Made by a program: the position numbers and the translations under genes. A DNA stretch of 41,822 nt, taken from positions 1 to 41,822 of the IMG/VR virus record IMGVR_UViG_3300028920_000016; one strand, 5' to 3'. Origin of the DNA: a virus. The notes beneath the pieces were generated by a model. That model was not told where the DNA came from. It saw only the letters and a program-made list of their open reading frames with translations, and made no database searches. This document shows, piece by piece, positions 11,180 to 22,127 of the stretch; the first letter of the stretch is position 1, and each line of letters starts with the position of its first letter.

Positions 11180-11256
11180 TCCTCGCTGCGGGAGTCGAAC
11201 CCGCAAGCCTTCTCGGGCGGCTCGTTTCCGAGCTGCGTTCCCACGCTATAGCGAGG
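11180..11256 (-). ncRNA. tRNA-like cloverleaf without anticodon loop
   Basis: Read on the minus strand, a 7-bp acceptor stem (CCTCGCT / AGCGAGG) and a perfect T arm (GCGGG-TTCGACT-CCCGC) are present. The middle does not form normal D and anticodon arms: it folds as GCGT-GGGA-ACGC and GCTCG-GAAA-CGAGC, both capped by GNRA tetraloops, plus a weak GCC/GGC hairpin. No U33 plus anticodon can be placed. CCA is not encoded (TCA follows). It could be a degenerate tRNA or a tRNA mimic that keeps the acceptor/T domain. Confidence 0.6.
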
Positions 11257-11260
11257 TTTG

Positions 11261-11421
11261 CTACCACACCCACCGGCGGATCTTGCCACATGCTCGACAT
11301 TCAATGTCTCTCGCCACGCCGCCGGTAAGCTGGCGATACTTGACAACGGTCTTAAACTTGGCCTTTCCACACTCACACACGCCGTTCATTTCCTTGAACA
11401 GGTTGGCTTTTTTTTGCTCAT
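11261..11421 (-). CDS. Tiny zinc-ribbon protein, possible -1 frameshift
   Basis: A 42-residue frame from ATG 11389 reads MNGVCECGKAKFK and ends with DIECRACGKIRRWVW: CxC and CxxC, a zinc ribbon. Its ATG has no well-spaced ribosome site. A second ATG at 11421 (MSKKK) reaches an eight-A run containing the slippery heptamer A AAA AAG; a -1 slip there would fuse MSKKK to ANLFKEMNGVCEC, giving 53 residues. So this is either an internal start, a programmed frameshift, or a homopolymer error. It lies between two tRNA-like genes on the same strand. Confidence 0.5.
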
Positions 11422-11447: not shown

Positions 11448-11568
11448 TGGTACGAGAGGCAGGATTCGAACCTGCATGCCGGTAGTCTTGGGGATTCGAA
11501 CCCCGCGTCATTAATCCGGTCTTGCCGCGCCAGGGCATGTCAGCGTCTACCAATTCCGCCACTCTCGC
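11448..11568 (-). tRNA. tRNA-Leu-like gene, 121 nt, anticodon region replaced by a large insert
   Basis: The 5' half (GCGAGAG TG GCGGAATTGGTAGACGC) is a textbook phage tRNA-Leu acceptor strand and D arm. The 3' end has a perfect T arm (GCAGG-TTCGAAT-CCTGC), the matching CTCTCGT acceptor strand (first pair G-U), discriminator A and an encoded CCA. Between them are 67 bases where about 34 are expected. CATGCC pairs with GGCATG to close this region, and inside lies a second T-arm-like hairpin (GGGG-TTCGAAT-CCCC). I cannot place a credible anticodon. It may be an interrupted tRNA, a recombinant of two tRNAs, or a non-decoding RNA. Confidence 0.6.
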
Positions 11569-11634
11569 AAATGCCCGTACTTTCCGGGCTGTCAGGCACT
11601 ACCGAGGTGCCAACTCTTTACGCGCTGAGCGTAA
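11569..11634 (-). other. Spacer between tRNA-like genes with three hairpins
   Basis: Read on the minus strand: TTACGC-TCAGC-GCGTAA, then GGCAC-CTCGGTA-GTGCC, then GCCCG-GAAAGTA-CGGGC. The last two have a 5-bp stem and a 7-base loop, the geometry of an anticodon arm; the middle one has a U at the place of U33. No acceptor or T arm flanks them. They may be processing signals or parts of an RNA spanning the island. Confidence 0.4.
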
Positions 11635-11756
11635 TGGTCGGGGCGGTGGGATTCAAACCCACGACATACCTATCTGAGGGAACGTCCATTATTGCTTTTG
11701 CTAGGACTTTGCGCGCATCTCAGCATCGGATGCTCTAATCGCTGAGCTACGCCCCG
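11635..11756 (-). tRNA. tRNA-like gene with encoded CCA, enlarged and unassignable anticodon region
   Basis: On the minus strand: acceptor CGGGGCG / CGCCCCG, TA, a normal D arm (GCTC-8-GAGC), T arm GTGGG-TTTGAAT-CCCAC, discriminator A and an encoded CCA. The stretch between D and T arms is 69 bases against about 22 in a normal tRNA. It can form CTGAG/CTCAG and, inside it, GTCC/GGAC around an A-rich loop. No 5-bp stem with a 7-base loop and U33 fits. First gene after the promoter at 11795-11767. Confidence 0.6.
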
Positions 11757-20654: not shown

Positions 20655-22127
20655 ATGTCAATTCGAAATTTCGGGACATCGCGCCTTGTACCGGGCACGT
20701 ATGTAACCCCTGACAGCAGCCGCGCAATTGACGGCGCGCTAGTCGGTCCGACTGAGACTGTTTTGATCGGTCAAAAGACTTCAGACGGTACGATCACCGC
20801 CGAGGTATTTACCCAGGTATTCAGCGCCGCGGACATCCAAGAAAAGGCCGGAATCGGCAGCCAACTGGATGAGATGGGGCAATACTGGTACAAAAACAAC
20901 GTCGCGAACAAACTGTGGATCGTCGCTCTGGATGACGCTGGAGCGGCAACCGCTGGCACACAGACGCTGACGATCACTGGAACGGCGACCGCAGCTGGTA
21001 CGGTATACCTGTATGTGAATGGCGTCCAGATCCAGGTTGGTGTATCGAGCGGCGACGCTAACACAGCCGTCGCGACCGCCATTGAGACCGCAATCGGTAC
21101 GGGCACGACCGACGCTGCCTACCCGGTAACCGCTGGCGCGGCCGCTGGTGTCGTTACCCTCACCGCGAAAAACGGCGGGACGGTTGGCAACGACATAGAT
21201 GTCAGACTGAACCTGAACTCCGGTGAGGAGCTTCCGGCTGGCATCAGTATTGCGATTGCAACGGGCGTAACCGGCGCGACCGATCCGGATATCGACGACG
21301 CTATCGCAGCGATCCCCGACGACATCATTAATTGGTGGATCTCACCCTACACTGACGCCTCAAACCTCGGCAAACTGGAAACCGAACTAGAACGGCGCTG
21401 GGGTACCTTGGTACAGCTCGACGGTCAGGCTGTGATTGCGTACGAAGGCACCGCCTCAGCAGTCGCAACGTTTGGCGACGGCGAGAACAGCCAATACATC
21501 CAATGCATGGACGCCGGGGTTAACTCTCCTATGCCGCCGTATTTGTGGGCGGCAGCAGTAGCCGGGCAGATGGTCTACAGCGCGGACGCCGACCCGGCTC
21601 GACCGTTCAGGAGTCTTCCGCTCGTCGGAATCATCGGCGATACGTTGACGGACAAACGGACCGACACCGAGCGCAATTCGCTGCTCACGTCAGGAGTGAG
21701 CACGCATCTGATTAATACCGCTGGTACTGTGTTGATTGAGCGCATGGTTACGTTCTACACCGAGAACGCCGTGGGCGCGGCTGACACGGCATGGCGCAAC
21801 TCTAACACAGCCTCCAACGTATCCTTCCTTCGCCAGAGCCTGATCAACCGGATCAACACCCGGTTCCCCCGTCACAAGTTGGCAGACGACGGGACAACGT
21901 TTGGCGCTGGTCAGCCCATCGTGACTCCGTCCGTCATAAAGGGCGAGATTGTCGACCTTTACGAGGACTGGATTCAGCTCGGGCTGACCGAGGATCTAAC
22001 CACGTTCAAGGATTCTTTGGACGTGGAGCGCGACGCTACCGACCGGACGCGCGTCAATGCCACGGTTCCGCCGATCCTGGTCGGTCAGTTCTATATCTTC
22101 GACGTAACCCTGCAATTCATTCTTTAG
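20655..22127 (+). CDS. Contractile tail sheath protein (Mu gpL-like)
   Basis: 490 residues, typical length. VPGTYVTPDSSRA near the N-terminus and FYTENAVGAADTAWRNSNTA, LRQSLINRINTRFPRHKLADDG and DRTRVNATVPPILVGQFYIFDVTLQFIL in the C-terminal third are sheath signatures. A Thr/Ala-rich insert (~95-195) resembles an exposed domain. Defines the phage as a myovirus. RBS AAGGAG at normal spacing. Confidence 0.88.
   Translation: MSIRNFGTSRLVPGTYVTPDSSRAIDGALVGPTETVLIGQKTSDGTITAEVFTQVFSAADIQEKAGIGSQLDEMGQYWYKNNVANKLWIVALDDAGAATAGTQTLTITGTATAAGTVYLYVNGVQIQVGVSSGDANTAVATAIETAIGTGTTDAAYPVTAGAAAGVVTLTAKNGGTVGNDIDVRLNLNSGEELPAGISIAIATGVTGATDPDIDDAIAAIPDDIINWWISPYTDASNLGKLETELERRWGTLVQLDGQAVIAYEGTASAVATFGDGENSQYIQCMDAGVNSPMPPYLWAAAVAGQMVYSADADPARPFRSLPLVGIIGDTLTDKRTDTERNSLLTSGVSTHLINTAGTVLIERMVTFYTENAVGAADTAWRNSNTASNVSFLRQSLINRINTRFPRHKLADDGTTFGAGQPIVTPSVIKGEIVDLYEDWIQLGLTEDLTTFKDSLDVERDATDRTRVNATVPPILVGQFYIFDVTLQFIL

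Follow-up and report, generated by a model that had tools for sequence, protein, structure and literature searches.

An anticodon-less tRNA-Leu-like RNA gene in a viral genome and a putative class of phage RNAs carrying exchangeable folded domains on a tRNA frame

Transfer-messenger RNA (tmRNA, SsrA) possesses tRNA-like ends and a T arm, with pseudoknots elsewhere in the molecule, and the ToxI RNA of type III toxin–antitoxin systems is an allele-specific H-type pseudoknot. The tRNA-Tyr of phages T5 and T6 counters retron-Eco7 and Septu, both tRNA-targeting defences, and action as a decoy or as a supplement has been proposed (PMC13096335). For tRNAOther of B. cereus, a pseudo-tRNA reported to be non-functional in translation, participation in a regulatory RNA has been suggested; the abstract concerns one pseudo-tRNA, located on the chromosome next to a genomic island, and mentions no exchangeable replacement domain (PMC3399842).

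The window analysed here is the whole of IMG/VR virus record IMGVR_UViG_3300028920_000016 (41,822 nucleotides), which contains genes for a head, a contractile tail and a baseplate. Within its head module, on the strand opposite to the surrounding genes, lies an anticodon-less tRNA-Leu-like RNA gene (11448–11568, minus strand, including an encoded CCA). The original prediction held that the acceptor, D arm, T arm and CCA of this gene are intact, and all four are indeed found on the minus strand. Specifically, the acceptor 5′ strand GCGAGAG (11562–11568) pairs over 7 bp with CTCTCGT (11452–11458), which is followed by A73 (11451) and CCA (11450–11448). The D arm GCGGAATTGGTAGACGC (11543–11559) is of the usual bacterial tRNA-Leu type and is common to at least 120 viral loci, and the T arm GCAGGTTCGAATCCTGC (11459–11475) is evident both in the sequence and in the Rfam alignment. 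We take A73 and the D arm to agree with leucine identity. The Rfam tRNA model (RF00005) aligns the full frame and skips the middle, with a score of 35.7 bits (E 5.7e-4 for the whole window), and ARAGORN makes no call at 11568–11448.

The skipped middle is a 67-nt replacement domain (11476–11542) that occupies the site of the anticodon and variable arms and is hypervariable among relatives. Its excess of about 33 nt over a normal tRNA-Leu had been anticipated, as had its two most visible features. The first is a closing stem in which CATGCC (11534–11539) pairs with GGCATG (11480–11475) beside the T stem, that is, at the variable-arm position; the T stem begins with the final G of GGCATG. The second is a nested T-arm-like hairpin, GGGG-TTCGAAT-CCCC (11490–11504). 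The further claim that no anticodon can be set survives in part. No standard anticodon arm (5-bp stem, 7-nt loop, U33, right position) was found in the element, but an alternative hairpin, TGCC-CTGGCGC-GGCA, offers 4 bp, a 7-nt loop, U33 and a would-be GGC; it is, however, displaced by a few nucleotides from the proper register, and CATGCC/GGCATG is a competing pairing. The middle has no decisive fold: the total minimum free energy of the element is unremarkable relative to expectation (z −0.94), a pseudoknot in its own middle is not significant (0.47 of shuffles are as good), and no relatives of this particular domain were found in IMG/VR. The element is very probably not a decoding tRNA. Directly upstream, on the same strand, sits a leader hairpin, GCCCG-GAAAGTA-CGGGC (11573–11589), that is conserved with Bacteroides phage BS-TP2.

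Two further tRNA-likes accompany the element on the minus strand. Companion 1 (11635–11756) has a class I frame with an encoded CCA and scores 42.8 bits with RF00005, and ARAGORN is again silent; a long insert replaces its anticodon arm, 59 nt being skipped by the Rfam model, and no relatives of it were found in IMG/VR. Companion 3 (11180–11256) is called tRNA-Arg(acg) by ARAGORN and scores 22.6 bits with Rfam, below the cut-off. The supposed anticodon arm of companion 3 is a tetraloop hairpin, GCTCG-GAAA-CGAGC, and alternative crossing helices (CTCGG/CCGAG and GAGCC/GGCTT) are visible by eye. Since neither companion has a usable anticodon arm, the phage holds three such tRNA-likes, adjacent to one another and opposite in orientation to the neighbouring genes. 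Between the element and companion 3, a 42-aa open reading frame (11261–11389, minus strand) encodes a zinc-ribbon-like CxC...CxxC arrangement and has no Pfam match.

With respect to relatives of the frame, the spacing from D arm to T loop in a normal tRNA is about 36–47 nt, and two patterns with longer middles were used. The first, which is that of the window, placed 50–80 nt between a D arm of Leu type and the T loop (lineage B, Bacteroidetes-type); the second combined a TGCAAAT variant of the T loop with a 40–70-nt middle (lineage F, Firmicutes-type). Each pattern retrieved at least 120 loci from IMG/VR, and the first, the only one applied to the genome collection, retrieved 10 loci from 84,980 bacterial and archaeal species genomes; because D arm, T loop and middle length were fixed in these scans, such counts are lower bounds and the length ranges are censored. 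A control with the commonest class-I D arm gave 9 long-middle viral loci. That D arm and T loop are conserved is likewise in part a product of the pattern, which fixes them, but the conservation of the acceptor stem and the outer T-stem pairs is independent of it. In lineage B, 93 of 111 acceptors are fully paired, and these comprise 37 different sequences. Acceptor helices of at least 6 bp, mostly 7–9 bp, occur in 98 of 106 lineage F loci, and a 6-bp T stem in 95 of the 106; position 73 is often paired, and G55 is present. Comparison of these sequences indicates that the acceptor and T stems are maintained by covariation. The lineage F RNAs, with their 6-bp T stem and often paired position 73, may perhaps not be processed or charged like tRNA.

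What the frame encloses is not an anticodon arm. A canonical arm of at least 4 pairs occurs in 5 of 103 distinct middles versus 6.5 expected from shuffles, and is thus not commoner than chance; two loci (L100 and L016) retain an arm of 5 bp that closes a 7-nt loop and includes a compensatory pair, but with C33. No strong motif common to all middles was found in k-mer tables. Structure is more apparent. The statistics strongly favour the helix at the variable-arm position (S2), homologous to CATGCC/GGCATG of the window (z 7.9 over 83 clusters and 9.5 over 73). A crossing helix (S1) has moderate support by itself (z 3.7 and 2.3), and the two considered jointly, as an anchored H-type pseudoknot, reach z 5.7 and 4.9. 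In single cases, the fraction of shuffles with as good a pseudoknot is 0.003 for BS-TP2, 0.017 for SPP1, whose candidate helices are CCTC/GAGG and GTACGGG/CCCGTAC, and 0.03 for L076, a minimal 83-nt form that reads CTGG-GGA-CGGG-ACA-CCAG-TTAGAAA-CCCG. Seven sequences make up one domain family in which compensatory changes on both sides affect 16 of 29 pairs, and several domain families recur beneath different acceptor stems. Taken together, these comparisons indicate that the replacement domains are structured and often H-type pseudoknots, though not clearly so in the window copy. Because both the stems of the frame and the helices of the domain covary, the class appears to be under selection.

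The domains also appear to move. Several pairs of loci have middles that are unrelated and of different length (identity 0.31–0.49) between flanks that are 91–97% identical, flank matches that may not abut the element, although in the aligned Firmicutes cases the upstream side does; in other pairs from the same comparison, the middles are 0.71–0.98 alike. The alignments run in identity through the D arm, pass into an unrelated middle and return to an identical T arm, and downstream spacers often differ. Unrelated domains between such flanks imply that the domain is swapped as a cassette. In some phages as many as five copies occur, which agree in acceptor and T arm but differ in the middle. 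In copies with an AGTCAGG frame the D arm varies, which weakens the need for leucylation.

On sequence grounds, counterparts of the element appear to sit unannotated in hundreds of other phages. Isolates that contain one at a spot without annotation are Bacteroides phage BS-TP2, Flavobacterium phage FL-1, Lactobacillus phages Lenus and Satyr, Leuconostoc phages phiLM33_01 and Ln-9, Bacillus phages KLEB27-1, phi3T, SPP1 and BUCT082, Paenibacillus phage Pd_22F, Weissella phage WC29P3 and Enterococcus phage 21C1. The window element fits this class in its Leu-type D and T arms, paired acceptor and 40–80-nt middle without a canonical anticodon arm. Its membership rests on the frame (identical D arm and T loop), the missing arm, the leader hairpin that BS-TP2 also has, and the T-loop module nested in the middle. 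A scan for leader hairpins gave 5 of 111 loci in lineage B (the window included) and 1 of 106 in lineage F, versus 0.6% at random positions; hairpins similar to that of the window precede L010 and L079 (by scan) and L070, L094, L101 and L102 (by eye). The nested T-loop heptamer GGTTCGA occurs in 4 of 103 middles versus 0.1 expected, and T-arm-like hairpins similar to that of the window were seen by eye in L083, L122 and L074.

The class differs from each of the systems introduced above. In canonical class II phage tRNA-Leu, the acceptor, D arm and T arm, the A73 and CCA of the window copy, and the variable-arm helix beside the T stem are all matched, whereas the class lacks the anticodon arm and has middles unrelated between members. 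Unlike tmRNA, it has a full D arm, a length of about 100–120 nt and a mostly Leu-type frame, and no sign of a tag reading frame was seen in the element by eye. An identity as tmRNA was rejected: the D stem is present, ARAGORN makes no tmRNA call, and the Rfam tmRNA model exceeds its cut-off nowhere, its one sub-threshold match being to the T arm of companion 3. ToxI is similar in that an H-type pseudoknot is supported class-wide, the window copy excepted, but it has no tRNA frame, and no endoribonuclease toxin gene recurs beside the elements among the clustered neighbours of 217 loci, whose top family is terminase-like. Rfam searches of the window and 24 related loci gave RF00005 alone above the gathering threshold, with no GOLLD, ROOL or other family. 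No description of the class was found in the literature searched (in which subscription journals and preprints are thinly covered), in Rfam or in deposited annotation, and in that restricted sense it appears new. Because tRNA finders miss such genes or force an anticodon on them, a frequent phage RNA class has gone unannotated, model phages included.

We propose, with about an even chance of being right, that the window element is one of many phage RNAs, widespread and unannotated as a class, whose tRNA frame, mostly Leu-type, presents an exchangeable folded domain that likely targets a tRNA-handling host protein. A domain that folds on its own, in many cases as an H-type pseudoknot, would have taken over the site of the anticodon and variable arms. 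RNase P, together with the enzymes of tRNA 3′ processing, would excise the transcript, which would be stable by virtue of its tRNA-like appearance; unable to decode, it would act in trans as a structured RNA, binding or decoying host factors that act on tRNA. The tRNA decoy raised in the original prediction would be one version of this mechanism. The likeliest targets would be tRNA-handling host proteins, in particular defence effectors that recognise the anticodon or variable region and cleave tRNA, although their identity is a guess. Diversity among the cassettes would then reflect an arms race. The T5 and T6 tRNA-Tyr is comparable as a phage RNA of the tRNA family, class II (PMC13096335), with the difference that it is a complete decoding tRNA and the class here would be unable to decode. 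In a broader formulation, tentative and somewhat doubtful, a common cassette system would extend across phages from at least two bacterial phyla, its tRNA frame presenting exchangeable domains as inhibitors of host proteins for tRNA handling or defence. This would be an RNA counter-defence repertoire residing in tRNA arrays and, with SPP1 and phi3T, in the most thoroughly studied Bacillus phages. The RNAs apparently cannot work as tRNAs, yet they are selected and cassette-exchanged; should host defences be their target, they would constitute an RNA counterpart to anti-defence proteins.

In terms of alternatives, genomic position bears on the view that these are structured regulatory or structural RNAs whose tRNA frame serves processing and stability only, and whose targets are nucleic acid or phage proteins (in packaging or the control of late genes) instead of host factors that handle tRNA. 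The element lies between late regulator and terminase genes in several Firmicutes loci and between head genes 9 and 11 in SPP1, and in the window it belongs to the head module, all of which is consistent with such a role. Other members reside inside tRNA arrays or among early genes, so the position is not fixed, and the domain shows no excess of antisense pairing with the phage's own flanks (mean longest match 9.09 nt versus 8.94 expected). We regard this view as unlikely. No recurrent neighbour gene stands out, the commonest being terminase-like (24 of 217, with neighbours clustered and not individually annotated), and no shared neighbour pointing to a toxin or defence target was found in this set.

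Frequent location in tRNA arrays, between which middles are swapped, and the resemblance of nested T arms to pieces of other tRNAs would also suit degenerate tRNA pseudogenes or functionless chance recombinants. A tRNA–tRNA recombinant had in fact been put forward for the window, and the class-wide swapping of middles between near-identical backgrounds bears out that part; a one-off chimera does not fit, as covariation argues for selection. The fully paired acceptors of 37 different sequences, the covarying domain helices and the recurrence of domain families under different acceptors make functionless remnants quite improbable.

The pseudoknot lies exactly at the place of the anticodon loop, as the minimal L076 form illustrates, which raises the idea of a codon-independent ribosome ligand: the pseudoknot would mimic a codon-paired anticodon stem, and the charged tRNA-like would enter the A site without mRNA, for rescue or translation shut-off. 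If correct, this would be a new mode of translation control. It is very improbable. Middles range from about 36 to more than 100 nt and form differing helices, a variety that a ribosomal slot of fixed shape could scarcely accommodate; the window copy has no clear pseudoknot; and lineage F carries G55 as well as one additional T-stem pair. With SPP1 and phi3T, both the defence and the ribosome reading become testable in a laboratory strain.

An intron-bearing or otherwise unusual decoding tRNA with a normal anticodon arm in its mature form, also raised in the original prediction, is scarcely credible: the Rfam alignment with its gap in the middle and the arms kept in L100 and L016 are what it would predict, but canonical arms are at chance level, no strong motif runs across all middles, near-identical backgrounds differ across the entire middle, and, wherever the pseudoknot holds, one S2 strand lies inside the would-be loop, so that excision would destroy the tRNA.

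Several other tRNA-likes were observed. Viral contig L100 has an array of 24 ARAGORN tRNAs together with three pattern-matching anticodon-less Leu-likes and one further Leu-like with a much longer middle. Very short forms consisting of acceptor and T arm only follow the element in SPP1 (L272; ACGGAC...GTCCGT) and the Leu-like element in L183 (GCAACCG...CGGTTGC). A class-I tRNA frame of 139 nt with a large insert (L217, 1297–1435, minus strand) scores 48.9 bits.

The phage of the window itself is probably a distant myovirus, judging from its proteins. No relatives of its major capsid and portal proteins were found in IMG/VR, the capsid protein having about 32% identity to its top-ranked match, and the tail sheath (20655–22127, plus strand) is closest to Bordetella phages at 42% identity. 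Other genes encode DUF5131 (627–1316), an IstB-like ATPase (1325–2035), a Radical SAM protein (PF04055; 4535–5839, plus strand) adjoining the terminase large subunit, and a permuted papain-like amidase (PF05708; 38709–39386, plus strand).
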